DNA from: Candidatus Latescibacterota bacterium
GTDB taxonomy: Bacteria; Latescibacterota; UBA2968; UBA8231
DNA length: 33,484 bases
Direction of reading: 5' to 3'
Assembly (NCBI GenBank): GCA_009691525.1
Contig: SICG01000032.1
Coordinates: 1-33,484, forward strand
The translations under genes were made by a program, and so were the position numbers. This document shows, piece after piece, positions 6,378 to 25,117 of this stretch (position 1 is its first letter; every line of letters starts with the position of its first letter). The notes under the pieces were generated by a model. It made no database searches and was not told the origin of the DNA. It worked only from the letters and a program-made list of their open reading frames with translations.

Positions 6378-6389
6378 CCCCCCGCCTCC

Positions 6390-8849
6390 CTACTCCTCCA
6401 TTCCCGCCTCCCGCAGGGCATCGAGAAAATAGGGCACCCCGAAAAAGAGCAGGCTCACGTACATCGGGCTGAGGCCCACCGCCCCCCGCTTCCGCTCGTC
6501 CTCGCCCCAGTACTGGCTCTCGCGCAAATGGCGCAGCACCTGCTGGCCGATCTCCAGATAGCGCCGCTCCCCGCTCAGGCGGTAGGCGTAGGCCAGGTGC
6601 CGGCAAAGCACCCCGCCGTAGTGCTGCTGGACCGCGAAGCCGGCGTCGAAGCTGTTCCCGCAGAACCAGTCCACCGCCCGGCAGTACACCCGGGCCACCT
6701 CCGGCCGGCCCGTCATCCGGTGCAGCAATTCCAGGCCGATCATCAGATAGTGGGTCTGGTAGCCCTTCTGCTCGGCGTAGGGCAGCACCCGCTTCAGGTT
6801 GGTGAACCCCCCGCCCAGGGCGCGGTACTCCTCGTCGGTGAAGGGTATAGCCGTGCCCATTTCCACCGCCAGCGTGGTGCCCTCGGTGGCCATGCCGTAC
6901 GGGACTTGGTCGGGCAGACGATCGGCGGTGGAGACCTGGAAGCGCTTGTGCCAGCTGCCGTCCTCGTTCTGGGCGCGGGCGATGAGCGCATAGACCTCGT
7001 CGGCCCGCTGCCTGAAGCGCTCCTCGCCCGTGATCTCGTGGAGGTAGAGCAGGCCGCGCAGGACATTGGCGATGCTGCGCAGGCTAAAGCTGAAGCGGGG
7101 GTCTTCGGTCCAGCGGTAGCGCAAGAAGAAACTGCCGGCCTCGCGCAGCACCTCCAGGGTGCGCAAATCCCCGGTGAGATAGTAGTAGTCCACCCAGTTG
7201 TCCACGAAGGTGTGCGAAGCGCTGGGCTCGTCGCCGAAATGGTCCACGCTATGGCGGAAACATCCACCCACCATGTAGGGCCGGAAGGGATGGAAGTGGC
7301 AGGTGTCCACGTCTGCCGAATGGCGGGTCATGGCCTCCCCCAGAGCAAAGTAGCGCGGCTCGCCGGTGCGCAGGTACTGGATCCACACGCCGTGGCGTGG
7401 GTCCCACTCGCTGTTGCACCAACCCCACCGCCCCCTGAAGCGCCAGTCCCCGGCCGACTCGTCCCAGGCCACCAGGGCGTCCCCCCAGTCGAAGAAGCCG
7501 TACCACCGCCCGAGCTGGATGTTCCGCTCCAGCCAGTCCAGAAAACCGCGCATCATCCGCTCCGAGGTGGGAAAGCGGCTTTCGTCCAGCGGGGCAAAGC
7601 CGCCGGCCGCCTGGCAGTGGGCCATCCACTCGGGGGCCACCGCCACCTGCGGCTGGGCGAGCAGTCCCCGCAGGGTGGGAACCGGATCGGTTCCCGCCTG
7701 GTAAAATACCAGGAAGAACTCGCTGGTCTTGGCCGTGCCGGTCCCATCCGCGTACACGCCCTCCCCCTCGTGCCAAGCTACCTCTTCGGCGTAGCGCCTG
7801 AAATTCAGGCGTTTTCCTTCCGGGTCCCGCCACAGATAGAGTTCGAGCCCGCCGCCGCTAGCCCTGAGGGCCTTGGGGTGCTCCTCGGCCAGGTGGCGCA
7901 GCGCCACTCCCACCCCCATCTCCCCGTCCTCCACCGCCATCCACCCCTCAGCGCGCTCCCCCTCGGCCACCCTGATTCCCCGCCGCTCCAGGGAGAAATG
8001 GTGGTCCAGGCCCTGGCTCAACAGCACCTCCTCCCCTTCCTGCAAGGCGTCCTCGATGAGGCGGTTGGCCCCCAGGAGAAAGCGCTTTGTCCCCCCCAGG
8101 ATCAGGCGCACCCCGATCTCCTCCACCTCGGTCTGGCGCGGATCGCAGGCCACCACCACGGTGTGCAGCATTCGCACATGAGCCTGGCCGGCGTAGGCAT
8201 AAATCCGCGTGATGAAACGGAAGGGCTGGTATCCCCGGTAATGGTGCATGGGCACCTCCGCCTCGAAGCCCCCGGCACAGCGGATCACCGCCCGCAGGGG
8301 TCCGGCCTCCTCTACCTTTGCCTCGTAGCCTTCCCGGTCCAACGAGGCCAGGCAGTTCCCCCCCATCCCGTAGACCCGCCGCTTCAGCCCGCCGTCCGAC
8401 CAAGATTCGCAGATCCGCACCCAGGCCTCCCCCACCCCACCCATCCGGCGGCCAGCGAATTCCACTTCCTCCAGCAGCCCGAAGCGCCGCTTGCTGATCG
8501 CAAAGCGCAGCGCTCCGGTGTGCACGCGGATATATTCCCCGTCCTCCTCAATGCGCAGTCGCGGACCGCCTGTTTCCGGTTGCTTCCCCCCACTGCACAG
8601 GTAGTACTGCCGCCGAGTCCCGGCGGGCACCTCGGCCTGGAAGTCCACCAGCACCCATTTGAGACTGCCATCGGGCCAGCGGCTGAGCGGACGGAACTGC
8701 GCCGGCACCGGCCGGCCCTGGGAATCTTCGACCCCCAACTCGTCTGGGGAGGACACCGCTCCCAGGGGCAGAGGTATCCCTTGGCTGAGGGGCCATCCCT
8801 GCCTGGCAAGACCCCGGCTCTCACTCACCTCAATTGTTATCCTGTGCAT
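6390..8849 (-). CDS. PcRGLX/YetA-like polysaccharide lyase (PL26-type RIFT-barrel protein)
   Basis: 819 aa from the ATG at 8849. The frame opens earlier at a GTG (8867), but GAGGG 5 nt upstream of 8849 favours the ATG. The N-terminal ~85 residues match the RIFT-barrel domain of exo-rhamnogalacturonan-lyase-like proteins: QGIPLPLGAVSSPDELGVED, then GRPVPAQFRPLSRWPDGSLKW and VLVDFQAEVPAG. A central beta-sandwich region and a C-terminal alpha-helical toroid (RWGWCNSEWDP, residues ~480-780 rich in Trp/Tyr) follow. The expected activity is lyase cleavage of rhamnose/uronic-acid-rich glycans (PL26 family), but no catalytic residue can be assigned by eye. There is no clear signal peptide, so it may act inside the cell. 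It starts 19 nt after the CNBD-REC gene and is probably cotranscribed with the pilus operon tail. Confidence 0.78.
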   Translation of the reverse strand: MHRITIEVSESRGLARQGWPLSQGIPLPLGAVSSPDELGVEDSQGRPVPAQFRPLSRWPDGSLKWVLVDFQAEVPAGTRRQYYLCSGGKQPETGGPRLRIEEDGEYIRVHTGALRFAISKRRFGLLEEVEFAGRRMGGVGEAWVRICESWSDGGLKRRVYGMGGNCLASLDREGYEAKVEEAGPLRAVIRCAGGFEAEVPMHHYRGYQPFRFITRIYAYAGQAHVRMLHTVVVACDPRQTEVEEIGVRLILGGTKRFLLGANRLIEDALQEGEEVLLSQGLDHHFSLERRGIRVAEGERAEGWMAVEDGEMGVGVALRHLAEEHPKALRASGGGLELYLWRDPEGKRLNFRRYAEEVAWHEGEGVYADGTGTAKTSEFFLVFYQAGTDPVPTLRGLLAQPQVAVAPEWMAHCQAAGGFAPLDESRFPTSERMMRGFLDWLERNIQLGRWYGFFDWGDALVAWDESAGDWRFRGRWGWCNSEWDPRHGVWIQYLRTGEPRYFALGEAMTRHSADVDTCHFHPFRPYMVGGCFRHSVDHFGDEPSASHTFVDNWVDYYYLTGDLRTLEVLREAGSFFLRYRWTEDPRFSFSLRSIANVLRGLLYLHEITGEERFRQRADEVYALIARAQNEDGSWHKRFQVSTADRLPDQVPYGMATEGTTLAVEMGTAIPFTDEEYRALGGGFTNLKRVLPYAEQKGYQTHYLMIGLELLHRMTGRPEVARVYCRAVDWFCGNSFDAGFAVQQHYGGVLCRHLAYAYRLSGERRYLEIGQQVLRHLRESQYWGEDERKRGAVGLSPMYVSLLFFGVPYFLDALREAGMEE

Positions 8850-8868: not shown

Positions 8869-9699
8869 CTAGCCGTAGACCTTGGCCAGAACCCGGCTCA
8901 CCACCTCGGCCAGTTGCACCAGATCAAAGGGCTTGGCCAGGTACTCATCCGCCCCGTACATCAACCCCTTCACCTTGTCCGGGGTCGCATTCAGGGCCGT
9001 GAGCATAACCACGGGTATGCGCTCGGTCTCGGAGCGCAGCTTCAACTGGCGGCAAACCTGGTACCCGTCTATCTCCGGCAGGCGCAGGTCCAACAGGATC
9101 AGGTCGGGTTTTTCGGCCAGGGCCAGGGTCAGAGCCTCTCGCCCGTCCTGGGCAGTGGTCACCTCGTAGCGCTCGGCAAAGAACTCGCCCAGCAACTGGC
9201 GGATCTCGATTTCGTCGTCGACGATCAGCAGCTTGAACCGGCGCCGCCGCTCGGCCTCGCCGGTGCTCAACAGCCGGCGCTGGACCTCGGCGATGCGCTG
9301 GTTCCGCCCCGCCAGCACCCCTACCCAGACCTTGAACAGATTGCGGCAGAACTGCTGGAAAAGCTGTCTGGGACGCGCTTCGAAGAAACCCAACACGGCC
9401 TCGCGATGGATGCGCCACAGGCGCCCGGAGGTGTTGCCCCAGATGGCCGAGCGCTCGATCTGGGGGGCCAGGATGGCCGAGGTGCCGATGGTATCCCCCG
9501 CCCCCAATTCGGCCAGGGTCACATTGCCCACCCGGACCGCGGCCTGCCCCTCGTCCACAATGTGGATATCCCACTCGCTCCGGCCGGCCGGCAGGATCAC
9601 CTCACCCGCGTCAAAACCCACCGGCTTGCCCAGCGCCAGAAAAGCCTTGCGCTCCGGGTCGCTGAAGCCGCGCAACAGGATCTCGATCTCGCTGGCCAT
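8869..9699 (-). CDS. Cyclic-nucleotide-binding-fold domain fused to a response-regulator receiver domain
   Basis: 276 aa. Residues ~1-120 form a CNBD-like beta-roll (GFSDPERKAFLALG, then VILPAGRSEWDIHIVDEG and LAELGAGDTIG). The phosphate-binding Arg is kept in ERSA (R83), but the usual Glu of the FGE-type motif is replaced (IGTSAIL). A helical linker follows. Residues ~155-276 are a complete REC domain: DD161-162, phospho-acceptor D204 in LLDLRLP, T234 and K256. There is no HTH or output enzyme, so it probably acts by protein contact like single-domain receivers. It is paralogous to the CNBD protein at 18214-18654. It has a strong RBS (GAGGAGGG) before ATG 9699 and lies 21 nt after the secretin gene. 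Inference: it couples a second messenger and a histidine kinase signal to pilus function. Confidence 0.85.
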   Translation of the reverse strand: MASEIEILLRGFSDPERKAFLALGKPVGFDAGEVILPAGRSEWDIHIVDEGQAAVRVGNVTLAELGAGDTIGTSAILAPQIERSAIWGNTSGRLWRIHREAVLGFFEARPRQLFQQFCRNLFKVWVGVLAGRNQRIAEVQRRLLSTGEAERRRRFKLLIVDDEIEIRQLLGEFFAERYEVTTAQDGREALTLALAEKPDLILLDLRLPEIDGYQVCRQLKLRSETERIPVVMLTALNATPDKVKGLMYGADEYLAKPFDLVQLAEVVSRVLAKVYG

Positions 9700-9720: not shown

Positions 9721-10857
9721 CTATTCCTGCTGCCGGCGCAGGATCTCCTCCAGCGGCGCCTCCTTTTGCAGCTGCCGCTCGACGCGCTGGCGCACACTGG
9801 GCACGATATCCACCTTGATCAGCACCACCAGTTCGGTTTTGCTGACCTGCTTCGAATTGTAGCCGAACAGATAGCGCAGGCCGAAAAACCAGGCCGGCAA
9901 TTCCTTGAGCAGCGGTATCCCAGCCCGCGTGATGGTGGTCTCGTCGCCGTACAGGCCGCCGATGGCCGTCTGCTCCCCGTCGCGCAAGAGCGCCGAGGTG
10001 CGCGCCACGGTCCGGCTGATCAGGTTGCGGACCGGATCGATCAGGGCGCTGCGCTCGGCCACCACCACCAGATCGACAAAATCGATCCCATCCTGGGAGA
10101 CGATCACCGGGTTGACGGTAAGGATGGTGCCGGTGCTGAAGAACTGGGTGATGGCATTGCCGGCGTAGTCGGCAGTGGTGACCGAGAAATCCGTGCCCAC
10201 CTGGATATAGCCCTGCTTGCCGCTGCGTACCTTGATCTGAGGCCGGGCGGTGATCTCGCCCATGCTGCGCTCCTCAAAGGTCTTTAAGAGCAAATCCACA
10301 CTCAGGGAGCGGTTGACATTGCCCCTCGCTGCGATGGTGAATTGATCGCTCACGACCCGGCTGGCCCCCAGGTGGGCGGCGCTCACATCCACCCGGCCGC
10401 CGCTGAGGGTGCTCCAGTCGATGCCCAGCTCCCGCAGCGCCCGCCGGTCTGCCTGGAAGAAGACCGCCGAGATCTCCACCTCCTGACTGTCGAGGGTGAC
10501 CTCCGGGGCCGGCGGCGCCGCGGCCGGGCCTCCTGTCTGGGGCGGCAACAACTCCACGTAATTCTCCCGCGCCACCACCTGCAGGCCCTGGCCCTCGGCG
10601 ATCTCCTGCAGGGCCTGGCGCCAGGGCTGGCGGTCTATATCTACCCCGATGGGCACACTCAGGCGCTGGGGGTCCACCACCACCTGGCCGGCCACGGCGT
10701 GAATCACCCGCAGGGCCTGGTCCAGGGGCATGTCCCGGCTCAGGGTGACCAGTTCCCGCTCCGGTGCCCGGCCGGCCGAGGTCGGGATCTGTCCCCAGGC
10801 TGTCGAGCCGGCCAGGGCGCCGGCCAGCAGATAGGCCGCAATTCTTCTCGATTTCAT
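9721..10857 (-). CDS. pilQ: Short type IV pilus/type II secretion secretin (PilQ-like)
   Basis: 378 aa, starting at ATG 10857, which overlaps the PilO/P stop (ATGA). A signal peptide (AAYLLAGALAGSTAWGQ) is followed by one small N-domain of the STN type (residues ~35-105), a Pro/Ala linker, and the secretin barrel. The barrel region includes VEISAVFFQADRRALRELGI, ITARPQIKVRSGKQGYIQVG and the signature ALLRDGEQTAIGGL, followed by GIPLLKELPAWFFGLRYLFG and KTELVVLIKVDIVP. Canonical PilQ proteins are often 600-900 aa with AMIN and several N-domains; this one is about half that. It should form the outer-membrane gate through which the filament passes. It sits directly after the PilM-N and PilO-P fusions, the classical pilMNOPQ order. 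Confidence 0.85.
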   Translation of the reverse strand: MKSRRIAAYLLAGALAGSTAWGQIPTSAGRAPERELVTLSRDMPLDQALRVIHAVAGQVVVDPQRLSVPIGVDIDRQPWRQALQEIAEGQGLQVVARENYVELLPPQTGGPAAAPPAPEVTLDSQEVEISAVFFQADRRALRELGIDWSTLSGGRVDVSAAHLGASRVVSDQFTIAARGNVNRSLSVDLLLKTFEERSMGEITARPQIKVRSGKQGYIQVGTDFSVTTADYAGNAITQFFSTGTILTVNPVIVSQDGIDFVDLVVVAERSALIDPVRNLISRTVARTSALLRDGEQTAIGGLYGDETTITRAGIPLLKELPAWFFGLRYLFGYNSKQVSKTELVVLIKVDIVPSVRQRVERQLQKEAPLEEILRRQQE

Positions 10858-11735
10858 CGCTTGGCGTCGAACTCCGCTTTGAGGGCGACCCGCTCCTCTA
10901 TTCCCCCCTTGTTGAGCACGAACCACACGCGGTTGCGCCGGATGTCGATCGCAGCCAGCCGACCCATGAAGACCCGGTCCCCTTCCCGCAGGATGTGCGC
11001 CCGCCCCTTTTTGTCGACCAGATAAGCCGTGTCGTGGGTCAGGGCCTTGACCCTGGCCCCCTCCACCTCGAAAAAGTCGGAGCGGTTTTCGGGCAGATGC
11101 TGGGTGATCGAGGGCAGAAAGGGATTGGGCGCCGCTTCCTCGGCTGACAAGGGTGCCCCGGGCAGGGCCTCTTCGATCTGGCCGGGGGCGAAAAAGGCGC
11201 GCATGAACATCTTGAAACGCACCTGTTCCCAGGCAGCGGTGTACATCCCCGAATCCGGCTCCACGTACTCGATCTCCACATGGTCCACAGCGTAAAAATG
11301 CCGCCCGTGCTCCAGGCGCCAGATAAAGGAATAGAGCTTCTCGAAATGCCCAACGCCCTCCAGGGCATAGCGGTTGACACTGTAGCCCTTTTCATCCTTC
11401 TGCCCCTTGTACACCAGGTCAAAGCTCACAAAAGACCCAGGGCTTTTCAGGATCTGATACAGATAGTCCAGGGTCTGCGCCGGACTGTCCACTGCGGGGA
11501 TCACCTGGGTCCTGGCGCTCCAGCGCTCCTCCTGGCGCTCCAGGTACGCCCGCGTGGTGTCGTACAGGGCCAGCACCGAGTTGGCATTGTCCAGCTCGGC
11601 CCTGAGGGTCCGCTCGCGCTCCTGGAGCTTTTTGACCTGGCCTGCCTGGCGCACCTGGGTCCAGTAGAATCCTCCGGCAGCTAACAGGGCCAGCAGCACA
11701 CCCATGATCAGGGTATTGCGCCAGGCGTAGGACAT
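10854..11735 (-). CDS. PilO-PilP-like fusion protein (inner-membrane alignment subcomplex)
   Basis: 293 aa. One transmembrane helix at residues ~9-28 is followed by a coiled coil (VKKLQERERTLRAELDNANS) and a PilO-type periplasmic fold (DSPAQTLDYLYQIL, GHFEKLYSFIWRLE, residues ~80-185). A linker then leads to a C-terminal PilP-like beta-sandwich (NPFLPS near residue 204, then VKALTHDTAYLV, ILREGDRVFMGRLAAI). In classical systems PilO and PilP are separate; PilP links the inner-membrane complex to the secretin. Here the fused protein would do both. It starts 4 nt after the PilM-N fusion, and its stop overlaps the secretin start. Domain borders are judged by eye; the PilP assignment is less certain than PilO. 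Confidence 0.75.
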   Translation of the reverse strand: MSYAWRNTLIMGVLLALLAAGGFYWTQVRQAGQVKKLQERERTLRAELDNANSVLALYDTTRAYLERQEERWSARTQVIPAVDSPAQTLDYLYQILKSPGSFVSFDLVYKGQKDEKGYSVNRYALEGVGHFEKLYSFIWRLEHGRHFYAVDHVEIEYVEPDSGMYTAAWEQVRFKMFMRAFFAPGQIEEALPGAPLSAEEAAPNPFLPSITQHLPENRSDFFEVEGARVKALTHDTAYLVDKKGRAHILREGDRVFMGRLAAIDIRRNRVWFVLNKGGIEERVALKAEFDAKR

Positions 11736-16036: not shown

Positions 16037-16438
16037 TCAGGGATTAACACTCGAAATCAGCACCTTGACCAGGGCAGTGGCGTCGCGGAAGGAGGCGCGC
16101 ACCTCGGCAATCCCCGGCTGCCTCGCGGTGAATACCACACTGTACACCAGCTCACGGGTCTGCTCGTCGGCCACCAAAACCAGCACCTCAGGGGTATTGA
16201 CCACCCCATGCACCGAGGTAGTGACCACAATCACCGCCTGCATACCGCGCGCCAGATTGCTCTGGTCCACCCGCTTGAGCTTAAGGGTGAGCAGGGTCTG
16301 GTCCCCCACGTGGATAAGGCGGTCGGCCACCTCCGCGCTGAGTTCAAAGTCGTCGTGCGCGGTGGTGCCTGCGCTCTTGTCCACCGGTTCGCAGGCCAGC
16401 AGGGCGCACAGTCCCAGGAATAAAATTTCCGCTCTCAC
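16037..16438 (-). CDS. Small predicted lipoprotein with a single beta-sandwich domain
   Basis: 133 aa. The start is GTG 16438, overlapping the PilT-like stop (GTGA). The frame is open further upstream, but that part is a shadow of the PilT-like gene. The N-terminus is a lipoprotein signal (LFLGLCALLAC, Cys16). The mature part is predicted beta-rich (LIHVGDQTLLTLKLKRVD, VIVVTTSVHGVV, ELVYSVVFTARQPGIAEVRA) and looks like one Ig-like domain. No family is recognised. Being coupled to the ATPase gene and followed 1 nt later by the large Ig lipoprotein suggests the two lipoproteins form one surface structure. It could be a pilotin or secretin partner, but nothing in the sequence proves that. Confidence 0.7.
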   Translation of the reverse strand: MRAEILFLGLCALLACEPVDKSAGTTAHDDFELSAEVADRLIHVGDQTLLTLKLKRVDQSNLARGMQAVIVVTTSVHGVVNTPEVLVLVADEQTRELVYSVVFTARQPGIAEVRASFRDATALVKVLISSVNP

Positions 16439-17640
16439 AGCAACTCCTCCATGCGGCGCTTGTTGTTGGCGAAGTTGATGGCCTCCTTGTCGGAGATCTT
16501 GCGGGCATCGACCAGGCGCTTGAGATCCTGTTCCATGGTGTTCATGCCCTGGGCATTGCCCTCGTGCATCATCTGATAGATCTCGCTGGTGTTGTTGTTC
16601 TTGATGGCCGAGCGCACCGATGAATTCACCACCAGCACCTCCTTGACCAGGGCCCGCTTGCCGTCCAAGCTGGGCACCAGTTTCTGGGAGATGATACACT
16701 TGAGCACGTCGCCCAGGCGCTCGCGCACCCGGTTCTGCTCCTCGGGAGGGCACTCGCCCACAATGCGGTCGACGCTATCCGAGGCCGAGGCCGTGTGCAG
16801 GGTGGAGAAGACCTTGTGGCCGCTGTCGGTGATCTCCAGGGCGGTGATGATGGTCTCGGGATCGCGCATCTCTCCGATGACGATAATGTCGGGGTCCTGT
16901 CTGAGAGCCTGCACCGCCCCCTCCTTGAAGGAGAGCACATCGCGGCCCACCTCGCGGTGGCGCACGATGGATCGCTGGGGCTGGTGGATGGTCTCGATGG
17001 GGGAGCCGATGATCACGATGTGGCCGTCCACCAGCTGGTTGTTGGCGTCGATGATGCTGTCGAGGGTGGAACTCTTGCCAGAGCCGGTGATGCCGGTGAC
17101 CAGGGTCAGCCCCTGCTTGTCATAGGTGAGGATAACCGCCTTCACCGCATTGGGGTGGAGTTCGATGTTCTTGAAGGGGCGGATGACATTGGCCACATAG
17201 CGCATGTTCAAGGCCAGATGGTCCAGGTCGAAGTAGAGGTCCGCCCTGAAGCGGTACGGCTTGCCCTCCCACTCAATGGCGTAGGAGAAATCCAGGTTGC
17301 GGTGGAGGTAAAGGTACTCCCGCTGCCGCTCCATCAACAAACTATGGAAGAGCAGGTCGGTCTGGTCCTGGGTGAAGGGACCGCTCGCCTCGTCGGGTTT
17401 TTTCTCCCCGTAGATCCGGTACCACACCCGGCCCCCGCAGCCGCCGCCGCCCAAGTCGATATCCGAGGCGTTTTTGGTGGCCATCTGAGCCAGGAGGCCG
17501 TTGATGGCGCTTCGCAGCACATCGCTCTCCTCGCGCGGCAGGCTTTCCACTAATTGGGCCACACACTGCTGGCGCTCGACTCCGCTCAGGTTCTGGGAGA
17601 TCTGCGCAGCGGCCTTGCTCAGGATCTCTTTCACGTCCAT
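16435..17640 (-). CDS. pilT: PilT/PilU-like pilus retraction ATPase with altered Asp box
   Basis: 401 aa. Residues ~40-150 are a PAS-like N-domain and ~160-400 the RecA-type motor. Walker A is GITGSGKSS (183-191), Walker B is DPDIIVIGEMRDPE (249-262), and the His box is GHKVFSTLHTA (274-284). The C-terminus has the PilT/U-style SAIKNNNTSEIYQMM and GMNTMEQDL. There is no tetracysteine zinc motif, which separates it from PilB. The usual Asp-box IEDPIEY reads IGSPIET (211-217), so the Glu-Asp pair is lost. A poly-Gly stretch with a Cys (GGGGCGG, ~64-70) is also odd. Expected role: hexameric cytoplasmic motor for filament depolymerisation. Spacing of 9 nt to the upstream PilW-like gene and GTGA overlap downstream show tight coupling. 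Confidence 0.87.
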   Translation of the reverse strand: MDVKEILSKAAAQISQNLSGVERQQCVAQLVESLPREESDVLRSAINGLLAQMATKNASDIDLGGGGCGGRVWYRIYGEKKPDEASGPFTQDQTDLLFHSLLMERQREYLYLHRNLDFSYAIEWEGKPYRFRADLYFDLDHLALNMRYVANVIRPFKNIELHPNAVKAVILTYDKQGLTLVTGITGSGKSSTLDSIIDANNQLVDGHIVIIGSPIETIHQPQRSIVRHREVGRDVLSFKEGAVQALRQDPDIIVIGEMRDPETIITALEITDSGHKVFSTLHTASASDSVDRIVGECPPEEQNRVRERLGDVLKCIISQKLVPSLDGKRALVKEVLVVNSSVRSAIKNNNTSEIYQMMHEGNAQGMNTMEQDLKRLVDARKISDKEAINFANNKRRMEELL

Positions 17641-18213: not shown

Positions 18214-18654
18214 TCACCTAGCCGGCAGTTCCCGGCTGAGCTGGATCAGGCGCTCCTCGCAGCGCCTGATCAGGTTCATATGGATGTGGAAGGCGTTGAT
18301 ATAATATAAATGGGCCAGCCTCTCGGGCAAAGCCTCCAGATGAGCCAGCACGGCCGAGCGCATGAAGCGGCGCAACTCCACTTCGGTCTCGGCCACCAGC
18401 GAGGCGGTGCGCTCGTGCGGTTCCACCAGCGCCGTGACCCCCAGGACGCTGTCGGCGCCCACTTCGCTCACCTTGACATCCCTGGCCCAGATGGAGAGCA
18501 GCCCCTCCTCGATGAGCAGCATGTCGCTGCCCAATTCACCCTCCTTCAGCAGCAGGGCCCGGATCGGATGGCGCTCCGGTGTTCCCAGCGCCAGAAAAGC
18601 CCGGCGCTCGGCCTCGGAAAAGCCCTTGAAGAGGAGTTCTAGGTCGCTGGTCAT
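18214..18654 (-). CDS. Stand-alone cyclic-nucleotide-binding-fold protein
   Basis: 146 aa from ATG 18654, 5 nt after the PilV-like stop. It is a single CNBD-like domain (LKEGELGSDMLLIEEGLLSI, VSEVGADSVLGVTALVEPHE, RTASLVAETEVELRRF) followed by two C-terminal helices. The phosphate-cassette Arg is present (RTA, R82), but the Glu expected in the preceding turn is Val (LGVTAL), so cAMP may not be the ligand. No DNA-binding HTH follows, unlike CRP. The first 24 residues closely resemble those of the CNBD-REC protein (GFSEAERRAFLALG against GFSDPERKAFLALG), so the two are paralogues. Being inside the pilus operon, it probably modulates the assembly machine by protein contact. Confidence 0.82.
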   Translation of the reverse strand: MTSDLELLFKGFSEAERRAFLALGTPERHPIRALLLKEGELGSDMLLIEEGLLSIWARDVKVSEVGADSVLGVTALVEPHERTASLVAETEVELRRFMRSAVLAHLEALPERLAHLYYINAFHIHMNLIRRCEERLIQLSRELPAR

Positions 18655-18659
18655 ACGCT

Positions 18660-19043
18660 TCAGCGCTCTCCGACAATGGCGTTCAGGGTGACGGCCCCCG
18701 ACAGGTACGGACTGGCGGCGCTGACCTGCACCCGCTTGAGCGGGGTGGGGCCGGCCACGGCCTGGTCGGGCGAGGCGGCCGTCACATAATCCACCTGAGT
18801 GGTGCAGGCATAGACGGCGAAAGAGGTGGTTTCGGCCGCGGCCGAAACGCCGATGGCCACCGAATCGAAGCCAGCGGCGAGCGCTTCCTCCAGCCGGTCC
18901 TTGCACAGGGCTATGGCCACCATCCCAGCCTGGGCCTCGATGGCCACCTGGTCGCTTTGCAGCAGGGTGCTATTGACCGACAGGGCGATGGTGGACAAGA
19001 GCATCATGCCCGCCACCACCAGCAGCATCTGTCCGGTGTTCAT
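18660..19043 (-). CDS. PilV-like minor pilin-like protein without a canonical prepilin motif
   Basis: 127 aa. The start is ATG 19043; upstream open sequence lacks a start with an RBS. The leader is Met-Asn-Thr-Gly, followed by a hydrophobic helix (QMLLVVAGMMLLSTIALSV) and a region resembling PilV-type minor pilins (VAIALCKDRLEEALAAGFDS), then a beta-rich domain ending LSGAVTLNAIVGER. There is no FTLIE-type motif; Gly4 is the possible cleavage point. Two cysteines (in ALCKD and YACTT) could form a disulfide. It is 10 nt from pilB and 5 nt from the CNBD gene. Pilin-like status is inferred from size, N-terminal helix and operon position. Confidence 0.68.
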   Translation of the reverse strand: MNTGQMLLVVAGMMLLSTIALSVNSTLLQSDQVAIEAQAGMVAIALCKDRLEEALAAGFDSVAIGVSAAAETTSFAVYACTTQVDYVTAASPDQAVAGPTPLKRVQVSAASPYLSGAVTLNAIVGER

Positions 19044-19053
19044 GGGATGGACC

Positions 19054-20826
19054 TCACTCGCCGGTAGTGGTGGCCGCCAGCACTTCCTCGAGGGTGGCCT
19101 GGCCCTCGGCAACGCGCCCCAGGCCCGACTGCCGCAGGCTCATCATGCCCTGCGAGAGGGCCAGGCTGCGGATGGCCTCCTCGTCCACGGCATCCCCCGA
19201 GGAAACAATCAGCTGGCGGATCTCCTTGGTGAAGGTCAGGGCCTCATGGATGCCGGCCCTGCCCTTGTACCCGTTGTTGTGGCAGGAGGGGCAGCCCACC
19301 GGCTGGTGGATGCGGGCCTGGGCCAGCTGGGCCTCGGCCATGCCGGCCTGGAGGTACGCGTCTCGATCCACCTGATCGGCCGGCTGCCTGCACTCTTTGC
19401 ACAGGGTGCGGATAAGGCGCTGGGCCACCACGATATTGATGGCATTGGCGATCAGAAAAGGTTCTACCCCCATCTTGTACAGACGCGAGATGGCGCTGGG
19501 GGCGTCGTTGGTGTGTAATGTCGAGAAGGTCAAGTGTCCGGTGTTGGCCAGTTTGATGGCGGTCTGGGCCGTCTCCAGATCGCGCATCTCGCCCACCATG
19601 ACGATGTCGGGATCATGGCGCAGGATAGCCCGCACCGCATCCTCGAAGCGCAGGCGCGGCCCGATCTTGATCTGCCTGGCCCCGCGCAGGACGTACTCCA
19701 CCGGGTCCTCGATGGTCAGCACACACACCGTGGGGTCAATCACCGAGTGGAGGGCGGCGTTGAGGGTGGTGCTCTTGCCCGAGCCGGTGGGCCCGGTGAG
19801 GATGACGATGCCCTGGGGCTTGGCGATGGCCGCCTGAAAAGCGTTGAGGGCCGCCGACTGCAACCCCAGCTTGTTCAAGTCGGTGACCACCTTGCGGTCG
19901 TCGAGGATACGGATGACCACACTCTCGAAGCGGCGCTCGGGCTGAGCCCCGGCAATGGGCAGCACCGACACCCTGAAGCGGATCAGGAAGCCGTCGACTT
20001 GGCGCTGGATGAAACCGTCCTGGGCCTTCTCGCGCTCGAAACGGTCCACCCCCCGCGAGCGGTCCTTGACCACGGCGACCACGGCCTCAGGTTTGGTGGC
20101 CTCCTGGGCGTACCACAGCTGGAGATTGCCATCGATGCGGAAGTGAAACTCAGTGCGGTTGCCCTCCTGCGGGATGATGTGGATATCGCTGGCCCCCTGC
20201 CGCACCGCCTCCACCAGGCAGCCCTCCACCAGGTTGGTGAGCATGCTCTGGTTGATCTCGGCGTCCAGCGAGGCTTCGTCGAGATGCTCATCGGCTGCTT
20301 CCTCGGCGGCCGGCGCGTTCACACTCTTGAGGATGTCGAGAAATTCGTTCTTGGGCGGGAAGATCCGGTCGATCAGGCCCTCGATGACATCCAGCCGGCC
20401 GTAATAGATCTCCGGGCGCCGGTACCCGAACTGCCCGGCGATGCCCATCACCTCCCTGTCCGTCGGGTCAGGCGTCACCACCAGCAGGCGGTCCTGGGGT
20501 TTGTCCAGGGCCTTGAGGGGCAGCACCCGCTTGGCCAGGGCCTGCTCCCGCACTGCCTCTGGCAGAGTTTCCAGGGTCTTCTTGACGAATTCGCAGCCGG
20601 CCTCCTCAAAGCCCTCGGCCTGGAAATCGAATTCCTTGAAGGCATAGACCTTGGCCAGGCGGCTGAAGATGGCGTGGTGGTCCACCCCCAGATCGCGCAC
20701 CAGGATTTCGCCGAACTTGCGGCTGGGGTGCTGGTCCTGAATCTCGGCGGCCTTCCGCTCCGTCTCCGCGTCGATGACCCCCTCGCGGATGAGGATCTGC
20801 CCGATCCGGCTCTTGCTCTCAGCCAT
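19054..20826 (-). CDS. pilB: Type IV pilus/type II secretion assembly ATPase PilB/GspE
   Basis: 590 aa. Residues ~5-65 resemble an MshEN/T2SSE_N module (RIGQILIREGVIDAETERKA), a fold that binds c-di-GMP in some PilB/MshE proteins. The middle domain contains ASDIHIIP (212-219). The motor has Walker A GPTGSGKST (345-353), Asp box TIEDPVEYV (371-379), Walker B DPDIVMVGEMRD (405-416) and His box TGHLTFSTLHT (429-439). A zinc-binding tetracysteine follows (C476, C479, C512, C515 in LCKEC and GCPSC). This is a full-length extension ATPase powering polymerisation with PilC. It is 19 nt downstream of pilC and 10 nt upstream of the PilV-like gene. Confidence 0.95.
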   Translation of the reverse strand: MAESKSRIGQILIREGVIDAETERKAAEIQDQHPSRKFGEILVRDLGVDHHAIFSRLAKVYAFKEFDFQAEGFEEAGCEFVKKTLETLPEAVREQALAKRVLPLKALDKPQDRLLVVTPDPTDREVMGIAGQFGYRRPEIYYGRLDVIEGLIDRIFPPKNEFLDILKSVNAPAAEEAADEHLDEASLDAEINQSMLTNLVEGCLVEAVRQGASDIHIIPQEGNRTEFHFRIDGNLQLWYAQEATKPEAVVAVVKDRSRGVDRFEREKAQDGFIQRQVDGFLIRFRVSVLPIAGAQPERRFESVVIRILDDRKVVTDLNKLGLQSAALNAFQAAIAKPQGIVILTGPTGSGKSTTLNAALHSVIDPTVCVLTIEDPVEYVLRGARQIKIGPRLRFEDAVRAILRHDPDIVMVGEMRDLETAQTAIKLANTGHLTFSTLHTNDAPSAISRLYKMGVEPFLIANAINIVVAQRLIRTLCKECRQPADQVDRDAYLQAGMAEAQLAQARIHQPVGCPSCHNNGYKGRAGIHEALTFTKEIRQLIVSSGDAVDEEAIRSLALSQGMMSLRQSGLGRVAEGQATLEEVLAATTTGE

Positions 20827-20845: not shown

Positions 20846-22183
20846 TCAGCCGGCGCCCTTGGGTCTGACCATCGCCGTCTCGGAAGACACCAGGGTCAGC
20901 GCCGTCATCACCACCATGATCAGCATCGAGATAATCACGTTGATCAGTTCGACGACGTTTTTCATCTTGTAGGAAGTCTCGCGCTCGTAGTAATTGGCCA
21001 ACTGTAGCGCGGTATTGCGCAAGGCCCCTGATTCCTGGCCCGAGCGCAGCCTGGAGATGGCGGTGACGGTGAAGATCTCGGCCCGCTCCAGCGACTCCAC
21101 CAGCCCCCTGCCCTCCTTGAGCATCATCGGGATCACCACCTCCTTGACCTGGCGCTCGATATAGGTGTTGCGGCAGGCCTCGGCCGCCACCCGGATGACC
21201 GGGATATTCTCCCCCGACCCCGAGTACAGGGCATAGAACACCCGCGCGAAGATCTCGATGCTGGTCTTGTGCAACAGCGAGCCGATCACTGGTATCCTGA
21301 TCATGAAGCGGTCGCGCAGGTAGCGGCCCCGCGGGGTGCGGAAGAAGAGACCCAAGGCCACAAAGGGAGCCAGACAGGCCGGCAGCAGCCAGGCGATATT
21401 GCCCCGCAGGAAATTGCTCAACTGGAGGGTGGCCTTGGTCATGGGGGGCAGATCGATGCCGAACTTGAGGAACATCTGGGCCGTGGCGGGAAAGATATAG
21501 CCCACATAATAGGCCACTGCCCCCAGGAGCACCATCACGATCACCGCCGGCATGATCAGGGCGCTTTTCAGGCTCTTCTTGAATTCCTCGTCCCGCTCCA
21601 GGAATTTGGCCGTGCTCTCGTACACCTCGGCCATATTGCCACTGGTGGAGGCCACCCCGAGCATATAGGCGGTGAAGCGCCCCAGCACGTCTGCGTGTTT
21701 GCCGAAGACCTCGCTCCCCTCCTTGCCGTTCTTGAGATCCTGCTGGATCTCGCGGATGGTCTTGGCCATGGTGGGGTTTTCGGTGTCATTGACCATCAGG
21801 GTGAGGATCTCGTCGTAGGGCAGGCGCTCGCGCAAGAGATCGGCGCAGATGCGGGTGAAGAGGACGATATCCTTGGCGGGCGGCTTGAACTTGAAGTCCA
21901 GCAGCACCTTCTCCACCCGCAGCACCCGGTAGTTCAGCTTGCGCAGGCCATTCTCCACCTCCTCCCTGGAGAAGGCCGCCTGCTCGCCGTGGATGGGCTT
22001 CTCGTCCCCGCGCCGGGCCTTGTAGCGGAAGGTGGATTTCTGCTGCAGGGTGGTGAGACGGATATTCTGCCGCCGGCACAACTCCTCCACCCGCTCCTTG
22101 GCTTCCCTGCGGTTTTTGGCGTTCAGCACACCCTGGGCCAGCCGGCCGGAGAGGCCGGTCCCTTGGTAGCGAAATTCGGGCAT
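20846..22183 (-). CDS. pilC: Type IV pilus inner-membrane platform protein PilC/GspF
   Basis: 445 aa from ATG 22183 (MPEFRYQG is the usual PilC start); the frame is open further up but crosses the hairpin region. It has a cytoplasmic N-terminus and two T2SSF repeats: first LFTRICADLLRERLPYDEIL to a TM pair (LIMPAVIVMVLLGAVAYYVG), second IEIFARVFYALYSGSGENIP to a final TM (VIISMLIMVVMTALTL). An ~85-residue segment before the first repeat includes FSREEVENGLRKLNYRV, which is longer than in many PilC proteins. It couples the ATPases to the growing filament. The gene follows the pilin by 84 nt with a stem-loop in between, and is followed by pilB. Confidence 0.93.
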   Translation of the reverse strand: MPEFRYQGTGLSGRLAQGVLNAKNRREAKERVEELCRRQNIRLTTLQQKSTFRYKARRGDEKPIHGEQAAFSREEVENGLRKLNYRVLRVEKVLLDFKFKPPAKDIVLFTRICADLLRERLPYDEILTLMVNDTENPTMAKTIREIQQDLKNGKEGSEVFGKHADVLGRFTAYMLGVASTSGNMAEVYESTAKFLERDEEFKKSLKSALIMPAVIVMVLLGAVAYYVGYIFPATAQMFLKFGIDLPPMTKATLQLSNFLRGNIAWLLPACLAPFVALGLFFRTPRGRYLRDRFMIRIPVIGSLLHKTSIEIFARVFYALYSGSGENIPVIRVAAEACRNTYIERQVKEVVIPMMLKEGRGLVESLERAEIFTVTAISRLRSGQESGALRNTALQLANYYERETSYKMKNVVELINVIISMLIMVVMTALTLVSSETAMVRPKGAG

Positions 22184-22205
22184 TGGTTCTCTAAATATAG
22201 TGAGC

Positions 22206-22240
22206 GTGGGGGTAGACCAGCGACGCCAGCCTACCCCCAC
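22206..22240 (-). terminator. Stem-loop between the pilin gene and pilC (attenuator or processing hairpin)
   Basis: A perfect 10-bp inverted repeat: GTGGGGGTAG at 22206-22215 pairs with CTACCCCCAC at 22231-22240, with a 15-nt loop. On the transcribed minus strand the stem is followed by GCTCACTATATTTAG, not a T-run, so full termination is doubtful. It more likely protects pilin mRNA or partly terminates, giving excess pilin over assembly proteins. Confidence 0.6.
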
Positions 22241-22267: not shown

Positions 22268-22663
22268 CTACAAATTGTCCGTGGTGGTGGGGTTGGCGTC
22301 CCCGAGGTTATATACCATGGTCACCACGACTGGTACTCCCGCGCTTTTCTCCTGATTGCCGGTGCCAGTGCAGGTGATGGTGTCCGCGTCGTTGACCTTC
22401 ACGGCAACAGCGCCATTGGCGTTGGTGGCGCCTGCGCCGATCTTCGCCAGGGTCATCCCGGTAAAAACATTGCCGCCGCCGCCCAGGCTAACCGGTTTCT
22501 TGGCCCACTGCTGAGAGAGGGCGACGACGCGCTGGCAATCACCAGCCATTGCATCCCGATTGCCAGCCAGCGAACTCTCACCGAACTGGGTCATACCCAC
22601 AGTGACCGCGATGCCGATGATGATCACCGCCAGGATGATCATGAGGATTTGCGTTTGTCCCAT
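22268..22663 (-). CDS. Pilin-like major subunit candidate without a canonical prepilin motif
   Basis: 131 aa with AAGGAG 8 nt before ATG 22663. The sequence begins MGQTQILMIILAVIIIGIAV: Met-Gly then an uninterrupted hydrophobic helix, followed by TVGMTQFGESSLAGNRDAM and a small Gly/Thr/Ala-rich beta domain. Two cysteines (in GDCQRV and ITCTG) may form a disulfide loop, as in pilins. It lacks FTLIE and Glu5 of type IVa pilins. From memory, similar MGQxQ-starting proteins occur beside PilB/PilC genes in FCB-type bacteria. It has its own promoter region with a CRP-type site and a downstream hairpin, both suiting a highly expressed filament subunit. The major-pilin role is inference. Confidence 0.7.
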   Translation of the reverse strand: MGQTQILMIILAVIIIGIAVTVGMTQFGESSLAGNRDAMAGDCQRVVALSQQWAKKPVSLGGGGNVFTGMTLAKIGAGATNANGAVAVKVNDADTITCTGTGNQEKSAGVPVVVTMVYNLGDANPTTTDNL

Positions 22664-22835
22664 GACCTATGCTCCTTGTTATGAGGTGGATGGGATAGGG
22701 GGAGTTAGTTGTAGGATGACTTACAACAGGTGGCCTGATGATCCTCCCAGAGAACTCACCCCCTTTCAGCCCGATTATTGGCATTGGGCAGTGGCAGGGC
22801 ACAGCCAATCAAGAAGTGCTACATAATACCAATTT

Positions 22836-22852
22836 AAAAATCTTTTTCAGCG
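22836..22852 (-). repeat. Direct repeat flanking the CRP-type site, copy 1
   Basis: The minus strand reads CGCTGAAAAAGATTTTT. A near-identical copy (CGCTGAAAAGTTTTT) lies at 22890-22904. Starts are about 52-54 nt apart, close to five helical turns, with the CRP-type site between them. Confidence 0.5.
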
Positions 22853-22857
22853 CTAAA

Positions 22858-22873
22858 AGTGATGCCCGTCACA
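22858..22873 (-). promoter_or_regulatory. CRP-family operator candidate upstream of the pilin gene
   Basis: The minus strand reads TGTGA-CGGGCA-TCACT, matching TGTGA-N6-TCACA at 9 of 10 positions. A -10-like TAAATT (22831-22836) stands at the spacing expected for class II CRP activation (site centre about -41.5). The same half-sites recur at 24145-24160. Confidence 0.55.
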
Positions 22874-22889
22874 AGCATCTTTTATCGAG

Positions 22890-22904
22890 AAAAACTTTTC
22901 AGCG
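22890..22904 (-). repeat. Direct repeat flanking the CRP-type site, copy 2
   Basis: The minus strand reads CGCTGAAAAGTTTTT, related to the copy at 22836-22852 by two single-base insertions. The AT-rich tail could also serve as an UP-element-like sequence. Confidence 0.45.
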
Positions 22905-23014
22905 AAGAAAGATGTTTCGATCCCCTCCCAGGGGTAGGTAGACAGCAGGGTTTCCCCTTATGCGCCAGCAATATAGCTCCAGAAGCGGAGCGAGGTCAAG
23001 TTGGTTTTCGCCCC

Positions 23015-24082
23015 TCATTCCAGCCACGAAAGCACGTTCAGGGTCCCTCCGCCCCCGGCGGCCACTGTGGAAGCCTGGATCAGGGCGGCATTGCTGTAGC
23101 GGATCTGCCCGTTCCCATTGCCGATGCAGTTGCCAGAGGGTTTGGTGGTCAGGGAGACCACCGCGCCGATGATGGTGGTGTGGACCTTGTCGATATCGTC
23201 GGCGATGATCAGGCCCGTGAAGGTCCCGGAGTTGAGGTTCTTGATCACCGCATTCCTGGCGCTGTTGTGGACCACCAGCACCCCGCTGCTGGCGCCAAAA
23301 CCCATAGACTGCCAGGTGGCTCCACTCGCCAGTTCCACATAGGTCACCCCCGAGAGGGGGAAGGTCAGATTGGCGGGATTGGTCACGTACTGGCTGCCAT
23401 TGGCCCCTGACTGGGCCATGGCCTTGAGACTACCCGAGGCGTACCCGAACACCGAATCGGGGCTGGCGGGAAAGGCGTAGACGGCATTCTGCTCGATGGT
23501 GGCGGCAGTGGCGGGTTTTGAGGGCGCGTAATCCACTCCAGCCACGGTGCCTCCTGCCTTTGAATTGCCGCCCCGATTATAGGTCTGGGTAGTGCTCACC
23601 CCCAGGGTCCCCTCCCCCGCAATCAGGTTGCCGTTCAGGTCGTGGTCCCGCCCGTCGATGATCAGGCCGCCCAACGTCGTCACCGTGGAATTGGCGGTGA
23701 CCCCGCCGCGCACCCCCGGCGGCACTGAGGGCAGGCTCACCAGCACTTCCACGGTATCCGCTGATTCACCGGCGTGCCCCCCGGCCCTGATCCGCACCTC
23801 ATCGGCGTTCAAGCTGGTGTCAGTGGAGCTGTCCTCCAGCGTCACCCACCCCGTGCCATCCCCTAGGGAGAGATTGGCGTACCCGGCCCGCCAGCTCAGG
23901 CTGTCGCTCAGAGCGGCCAGGGCCATCTGGGCCGCCGAAGTGGCCGAGAGCCTGGACACGGTCCGGTAGTAGTACTCCAGGAAATTGTCGGAGAAGAGCG
24001 CGTTCACCTCGTTGAGGTTGGCCCTGATCCAACCAAAGGTGACGACGAAGCCGGCGATGACGATCAGCGAGTACTTGCCCAT
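23015..24082 (-). CDS. PilX-like pilus assembly protein, first gene of the pilus operon
   Basis: 355 aa from ATG 24082; an upstream in-frame start at 24139 would place the hydrophobic helix too far in. The sequence starts Met-Gly-Lys-Tyr then a helix (SLIVIAGFVVTFGWIRANL), followed by an amphipathic segment with small residues (SATSAAQMALAALSDSLSW) typical of PilX-type N-termini. The long C-terminal part is Gly/Ser/Thr-rich and beta-helical in style (GGLIIDGRDHDLNGNLIAG, GVLVVHNSARNAVIKNLNSG, TFTGLIIADDIDKVHTTIIG), resembling the polymer-forming C-terminal regions of PilX-like proteins. It has no FTLIE motif. A CRP-type site lies 62 nt upstream. It is separated from the pilin gene by the regulatory gap but shares its strand. 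Confidence 0.7.
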   Translation of the reverse strand: MGKYSLIVIAGFVVTFGWIRANLNEVNALFSDNFLEYYYRTVSRLSATSAAQMALAALSDSLSWRAGYANLSLGDGTGWVTLEDSSTDTSLNADEVRIRAGGHAGESADTVEVLVSLPSVPPGVRGGVTANSTVTTLGGLIIDGRDHDLNGNLIAGEGTLGVSTTQTYNRGGNSKAGGTVAGVDYAPSKPATAATIEQNAVYAFPASPDSVFGYASGSLKAMAQSGANGSQYVTNPANLTFPLSGVTYVELASGATWQSMGFGASSGVLVVHNSARNAVIKNLNSGTFTGLIIADDIDKVHTTIIGAVVSLTTKPSGNCIGNGNGQIRYSNAALIQASTVAAGGGGTLNVLSWLE

Positions 24083-24115
24083 ATATGCCTGCCTGGAGTA
24101 CACTGGAACACAGAT

Positions 24116-24123
24116 GTAATATG
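24116..24123 (-). promoter_or_regulatory. -10-like element for the pilus operon
   Basis: The minus strand contains CATATT/TATTAC overlapping in this stretch. It lies 21-24 nt downstream of the CRP-type site and about 34 nt before the ATG at 24082. No good -35 accompanies it, as expected for an activator-dependent promoter. Confidence 0.35.
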
Positions 24124-24144
24124 CGGCAAAATCTCCCACAACGC

Positions 24145-24160
24145 AGTGAGAGGGATCACA
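24145..24160. promoter_or_regulatory. CRP-family operator candidate between the pilus operon and the rhomboid gene
   Basis: AGTGA-GAGGGA-TCACA (plus strand) matches the CRP consensus TGTGA-N6-TCACA at 9 of 10 positions on the minus strand. It sits 62 nt upstream of the PilX-like start and 75 nt upstream of the divergent rhomboid start, so it could regulate both. The half-sites are identical to those at 22858-22873. Confidence 0.55.
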
Positions 24161-24235
24161 CTCCCCCCGTACTCCCTTGATCTCCTGTCAACGCTGCGGT
24201 ATCTTCCGGTCATCCTCTTCTGAAGCAGCCAAAAA

Positions 24236-25117
24236 TTGGACCTGCCCGCACCAGAATCCGCCCCCTGGATCCCGCTTTTCCGCGCCCCCCAATTCGGCCC
24301 CTGCGCCGAGCGGGCCCTGGTCCTGGCGGCGCTGGGCATCGACTATATCCTGCTACAGGAGGACGGGTCGTACGTCCTGCTGGTAGAAGCCGGAGCCGCC
24401 CAACGCGCCGCCGGCGAGTTGAGCCAGTTCGAGGGGGAAAACGTGGGCTGGCCCCCTCCCGAGGAAATCCTGCCCCCCGAGGTGCCGGGCAGCCTGCACA
24501 GTCTGGTGGGATACGCGGGTATCCTCTGCTCGATCTTCTACCTGCAACGCACCCGCACCTACTCCCTGGACTGGTGGCAGGCCGGCAGAGGGGATGTCGA
24601 CCTCATCGCCGTGGGCCAGTGGTGGCGTGTCTTCACCGCCCTCACCCTGCACGCCGACGAAGCCCATCTGCTGGGCAATCTGCTCTTCGGCACTTTCTTC
24701 GCCTTCCTGCTCTGCCGCCAACTGGGGGCCGGCGCTGCCTGGTTCGCCATCCTGCTGGCCGGCGTCACCGGCAATCTCGTCAAGGCCCAGTTACACCCGG
24801 CTGACCACCACTTCATCGGCGCCTCCACCGCCGTGTTCGGTGCCATCGGCATGCTCTTGGCGCTGCAGTGGAAACCCCGCCCCTCGCGCTGGCGTCAGTG
24901 GGCACCCCTGATCATCGGCGCCGTGCTGCTAGGCTTTTTAGGCACAGCCGGCAAACACACCGACGTGCCGGCCCACATCGCCGGCATGGGCACTGGCCTG
25001 CTCATCGGCCTGGTCTGGCGCTGGCTGCCCGCGCCGCTGTCCCCATCCGTGCAGACAGCCCTGGGGGCTGCCACGTTGCTCTCCTTGGTATTCGCCTGGG
25101 CCTGGGCGCTGGCCTGA
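24236..25117 (+). CDS. Rhomboid-family intramembrane serine protease
   Basis: 293 aa with a TTG start at 24236. No better start was seen; the true start could lie slightly downstream. Residues ~1-80 form a small cytoplasmic domain (ALVLAALGIDYILLQEDGSY, then AAGELSQFEGEN) of a type common before bacterial rhomboid domains. Membrane part: a TM near residue 90, an L1 loop with WWQAG and WWRVFTAL, HLLGNLLFGTFFAFLL in the second core helix, the catalytic serine motif IGASTAVFGA, and the catalytic His in DVPAHIAGMGTGLLIG. A final TM ends the protein. It should cleave TM segments of single-pass membrane proteins. Divergent from the pilus operon and sharing its CRP-type site, so a processing role for envelope proteins there is possible but unproven. 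Confidence 0.88.
   Translation: MDLPAPESAPWIPLFRAPQFGPCAERALVLAALGIDYILLQEDGSYVLLVEAGAAQRAAGELSQFEGENVGWPPPEEILPPEVPGSLHSLVGYAGILCSIFYLQRTRTYSLDWWQAGRGDVDLIAVGQWWRVFTALTLHADEAHLLGNLLFGTFFAFLLCRQLGAGAAWFAILLAGVTGNLVKAQLHPADHHFIGASTAVFGAIGMLLALQWKPRPSRWRQWAPLIIGAVLLGFLGTAGKHTDVPAHIAGMGTGLLIGLVWRWLPAPLSPSVQTALGAATLLSLVFAWAWALA

Follow-up and report, generated by a model that had tools for sequence, protein, structure and literature searches.

The type IV pilus of this Latescibacterota bacterium is probably built under the control of cyclic AMP. Two short palindromes in the two large gaps of the pilus operon are predicted to be operators of the host's own CRP-family regulator controlling the pilus genes, an assignment that is favored, if not strongly, by their sequence and surroundings. 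Binding of the regulator, cAMP as its ligand, and activation rather than repression as its effect are in each case the most likely interpretation.

The window analyzed is a stretch of 33,484 nucleotides from a genome of 4,022,406 bp (200 contigs, 84% complete). Its minus strand carries the parts of a type IV pilus machine, namely an assembly ATPase (PF00437), a platform protein (PF00482), a secretin (PF00263) and a pilin-like gene, and the same cluster also encodes a protein with Big_1 domains. The genes concerned are:

9721-10926, minus strand: PilQ-type secretin (PF00263; TIGR02515 scores below its curated cut-off)
16435-17640, minus strand: second T2SSE ATPase, PilT-like (PF00437, E 8.3e-32)
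19054-20826, minus strand: T2SSE / PilB-type assembly ATPase (PF00437, E 1e-104)
20846-22240, minus strand: T2SSF / PilC-type platform protein (PF00482, E 1.8e-30)
22268-22663, minus strand: pilin-like gene, 131 aa, MGQTQILMIILAVIIIGIAVTVGM..., annotated from its N-terminus and its neighbors
23015-24082, minus strand: PilX-like gene, 355 aa from the ATG, named in the initial annotation
24236-25117, plus strand: rhomboid-family gene, divergent, with the site 2 region in common (PF01694, E 1.2e-22)

The pilin-like protein has no match in Pfam, and the PilX-like protein has none in Pfam or NCBIfam. Because neither matches a Pfam model, both names rest on sequence character and place.

Within the genus, the source genome (G000) was compared with four relatives, G001 to G004. 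The pilus is absent from three of the four, and G003 (JACPJE01) is the only other genus member that has it. Given this distribution, the locus could be suspected of being contamination from a wrong bin. This is unlikely, as the G003 locus is syntenic and G002 holds a relic of the pilus inside the same flanking genes. Among the 47 genomes of the class, a close T2SSF orthologue occurs only in G000, G003 and G025. In G025 (L089, about 140-1250), two similar pilin genes stand in tandem ahead of the T2SSF gene, and the PilX-like gene is placed further down the operon. The first of these pilin genes has only about 170 bp of contig upstream of it and for that reason was left out of the site comparison.

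The two palindromes read AGTGA-N6-TCACA on the plus strand and TGTGA-N6-TCACT on the strand of the pilus genes:

22858-22873, minus strand: site 1, predicted CRP-type operator TGTGACGGGCATCACT, ahead of the pilin gene
24145-24160, minus strand: site 2, predicted CRP-type operator TGTGATCCCTCTCACT, in the gap that separates the PilX-like gene, which it precedes, from the divergent rhomboid gene

As the initial annotation had described, each site agrees with the consensus TGTGA-N6-TCACA, with its 6-bp spacer, at nine of ten positions, and the deviating base is identical in both. The accompanying claim that the two copies occupy the two gaps of one operon and are seen nowhere else extends to the whole genome: the window has no further match to the consensus with one mismatch or fewer, and sites 1 and 2 are the only two exact copies of TGTGA-N6-TCACT in 4.02 Mb. 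In dinucleotide shuffles, a site with at most one mismatch arose in 0.7% of the trials for the gap at 22664-23014 and in 0.75% for the gap at 24083-24235, and the exact variant arose in 0.075% and 0.05%, respectively. For both gaps together the probability is about 5e-5, a figure that is not corrected for the selection of the motif after inspection.

The possibility that the palindromes are chance occurrences, bound by no protein, is unlikely, although it deserves the most serious attention among the alternatives. Sites with at most one mismatch number 23 in the genome against 19 for the reversed control, which is near background, and the asymmetric variant TGTGA-N6-TCACT shows no enrichment among family genomes (31 against 27 in 15 of them). 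All such tallies are pattern searches with the reversed pattern as control, taken from draft assemblies, and the related genomes among them are non-independent. The motif alone is thus weak and its placement is the signal, so that the pilus sites must be argued from placement and conservation. On these grounds a chance origin is disfavored: the joint probability is low, the only two copies of the genome both fall into the two gaps of one operon, and their cores are kept in G003.

The perfect palindrome TGTGA-N6-TCACA behaves differently from the asymmetric variant. It occurs 73 times in 24 family genomes against 9 for the reversed control, and 17 times against 1 within the genus. The mean number of such sites is 4.8 in the family genomes that have a full-length CRP orthologue and 0.6 in those that lack one; the counts of the two groups (13 and 5 genomes) do not overlap (exact P 1.2e-4, uncorrected for relatedness). 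One perfect palindrome of the source genome, on contig C61 (L006:1501-1516), has an amidohydrolase gene on one side, and on the other a gene for a small membrane protein, after which comes argininosuccinate synthase. Both of its half-sites are kept in G000, G004 and G003, whereas the spacer has diverged. The enrichment and the retained half-sites together suggest that members of this genus make use of a CRP-type signal. The initial annotation had proposed to weigh the sites against the random density of the motif, and the outcome of that comparison is divided, the asymmetric variant being at the family background and the perfect palindrome strongly enriched.

A CRP-family regulator, which had been named as a gene to look for, is present once in the genome (219 aa, contig C105, HTH_Crp_2 with E 2.1e-19). 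A second CRP paralogue occurs in G001, G002 and G004; as the genome is 84% complete, this paralogue could be absent from the assembly only. In E. coli CRP, residues R180, E181 and R185 read the TGTGA half-site, and the cAMP pocket includes G-E, R-S and T residues. Residues R189, E190 and R194 of the regulator align with the three DNA-reading residues, and the recognition helix reads RETVSR here and RETVGR in the E. coli K-12 sequence. In the pocket, G-E, R-S and T are all kept, and D occupies the position of S128 of E. coli CRP. Over its full length, the regulator is closest, among solved structures, to Mycobacterium tuberculosis CRP and proteins like it. The genome also has three matches to Guanylate_cyc (PF00211), representing class III nucleotide cyclases.

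The relatives allow the conservation of the sites to be followed in both directions. In G003, the two gaps are 85% and 90% identical to those of the source genome, and none of the 16 core bases (GTGA and TCAC at each site) has changed. Site 1 of G003, TGTGATGGGCATCACT, differs in one spacer base, and site 2, TGTGATCCCTCTCACG, differs in its outermost base. This is the conservation that had been proposed as a check, found in the sole genus relative with a pilus, a small sample. The support is modest, since even without selection 16 bases would stay the same with a probability of several per cent or more. Between site 1 and the pilin gene, G003 (L050) carries a 111-bp MITE-like insertion with perfect 12-bp inverted ends (TAGATATTCCGA/TCGGAATATCTA), which is absent from G000 and G002.

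In G002, about 13 kb of the locus has been deleted, and the pilin gene is now fused to the receiver part of the cNMP-REC gene, which stands at the opposite end of the operon. The relic (L212, contig C16, about 4700-6900) retains the conserved flanks, and its PilX-like gene is frameshifted. Three of the 16 core bases are broken over the two sites: both half-sites of site 1, TGTAATGGGCGTCAAT, are broken, and so is the pilX-proximal half of site 2, TGTGATCCGGCGCACG. The sites decay at no higher rate than the gap around them (64-69% identity), and their decay thus reflects relaxed constraint, not selection for their loss. The breakage of the predicted operators in G002 is more telling than their conservation in G003. 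No comparable pair of sites, other than that of G003, was found among 80 named pilus loci of FCB phyla, which means that the pair is not an ancestral feature of this type of pilus.

Site 2 lies between two divergent genes, one of which has a conserved promoter of its own:

24177-24205, plus strand: rhomboid promoter TTGATC-N17-TATCTT (predicted), hexamers identical in G000, G003 and G002

The view that the pilus is the sole owner of site 2 is not supported. It might be that only site 1 is a pilus operator and that site 2 serves the rhomboid gene, with CRP at site 2 centered at about -60 relative to the predicted start of that gene's transcript, a class I distance. The invariance of the rhomboid hexamers in three genomes is consistent with this arrangement, as is the fact that the gap in G003 is more conserved on the rhomboid side than on the pilX side. 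Furthermore, the hexamer CATATT at 24123-24118 (minus strand), which is at class II distance from site 2 toward pilX, becomes CATCGT in G003, so that the class II geometry of site 2 is not conserved. The arrangement is nonetheless doubtful. Both the rhomboid gene and its promoter are intact in G002, yet there the pilX-proximal half of site 2 is broken and the spacing from the site to the -35 element is shorter by 5 bp. The rhomboid gene of G001 has no site resembling site 2. These cases, which are very few, suggest that the pilus is the main client of site 2.

The gap upstream of the pilin gene contains three elements from which transcription might start:

22970-22999, minus strand: promoter P1, TTGACC-N18-TATATT (predicted), directly after the PilX-like stop codon and upstream of site 1
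22831-22836, minus strand: -10-like hexamer TAAATT, seen in the sequence at exactly class II distance from site 1
22823-22850, minus strand: alternative promoter P2 (predicted), CTGAAA-N16-TATTAT, the -10 being preceded by TG

The distance from TAAATT to the center of site 1 is 29.5 bp, which places CRP at a predicted -41.5, and G003 has TATGTT at the same spacing. The AT-rich -10-like hexamers that had been placed at class II distance thus both exist; the spacing of that at site 1 is kept in G003, but the hexamer at site 2 is lost there. P2, which is kept in G003 (TATCAT) and decayed in G002, competes with the TAAATT promoter as the predicted promoter downstream of site 1, and it would place site 1 at about -49.5, an unfavorable phase. 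No other promoter of the gap is as strong or as conserved as P1, whose hexamers are identical in G000, G003 and G002; site 1 is at about +97 relative to P1. The 18-bp spacer of P1 contains the dyad GCTCC-N6-GGAGC, an arrangement that recalls MerR-type promoters; G003 retains both arms of the dyad but has a different loop. A resemblance of 22900-22960 to the tail of a c-di-GMP riboswitch was rejected by the Rfam check.

The position of P1 upstream of site 1, together with its strength and conservation, raises the possibility that CRP at site 1 represses, either by blocking readthrough from P1 or by hindering P2. Such repression is rather improbable, because the class II spacing of the TAnnTT hexamer is kept in G003. 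It is very improbable that the palindromes act as hairpins of a leader RNA (an attenuator or part of a riboswitch), for although GUGA-N6-UCAC is able to form a short stem, the folding is no better than that of shuffles (z -0.96, -0.85 and -0.38), no Rfam match lies above threshold and no terminator was found.

The proposal that sites 1 and 2 are CRP-type operators of the pilus genes is supported by the regulator, the cyclases, the probable family regulon, the conservation in G003 and the breakage in G002; class II geometry at site 2 and its sole ownership by the pilus are not supported. By combining this information, it is possible to describe how the pilus genes might be controlled. The class III cyclases would make cAMP and most likely supply it to the 219-aa regulator, which most likely binds it. 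The cAMP-bound regulator would then recognize TGTGA-N6-TCAC(A/T). The most likely effect of CRP bound at site 1 is to activate the pilin gene from a class II promoter (-10 TAAATT, CRP at -41.5), beside which the upstream, CRP-independent P1 would work. At site 2, CRP most likely controls the head of the operon, the PilX-like gene, with a geometry that is not fixed.

The pilus operon also encodes, on the minus strand, two proteins that have a cyclic-nucleotide domain and no helix-turn-helix, at 8869-9699 (with a receiver domain) and in the C-terminal part of 18214-18906. It might be speculated that the circuit has two layers, in which cAMP-CRP sets pilus transcription via both operators and these two proteins tune the machine at the protein level. 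This speculation is a long shot. Both proteins are without the glutamate of the phosphate-binding cassette, having LGV and IGT instead of FGE, and may for this reason not bind cAMP.

In the class II CRP-dependent promoters of E. coli (galP1 type), CRP is located at -41.5. Site 1 has the same distance from its -10-like hexamer, the start being predicted, whereas the geometry of site 2 is not conserved. CRP-S sites have an altered core and require Sxy/TfoX; unlike the CRP-S sites of Vibrio and Haemophilus, the sites described here have normal TGTGA halves. The competence pili of Vibrio and Haemophilus are under CRP control through CRP-N and CRP-S sites (PMC4299799), and the likeness is that a type IV pilus machine is tied through CRP, here by prediction, to carbon or nucleotide status. 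In Pseudomonas aeruginosa, cAMP-Vfr controls the type IV pilus fimU operon, which includes PilX, and the CRP-family protein Vfr activates from a TGNGA-N6-TCACA-type site upstream of the minor pilin genes (PMC8787478). The Latescibacterota locus is similar in having a CRP-type site upstream of pilus genes, including a PilX-like gene. It differs in phylum and in pilus type, its sites are nearer the consensus, and binding is shown in P. aeruginosa and is a prediction in the present case. No paper joining CRP, the type IV pilus and Latescibacter was found in the literature. Control of pili by cAMP-CRP is of a known kind in Pseudomonas and Vibrio, and the instance predicted here is new, in another phylum.

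If the proposed control is true, an uncultured FCB phylum joins the groups in which type IV pili are controlled by cAMP-CRP, and a cAMP-responsive pilus is predicted in an organism that has never been grown. The genus can be compared to a small natural experiment, in which the pilus and its putative operators are intact in G000 and G003, while in G002 the pilus is deleted and the sites are broken.
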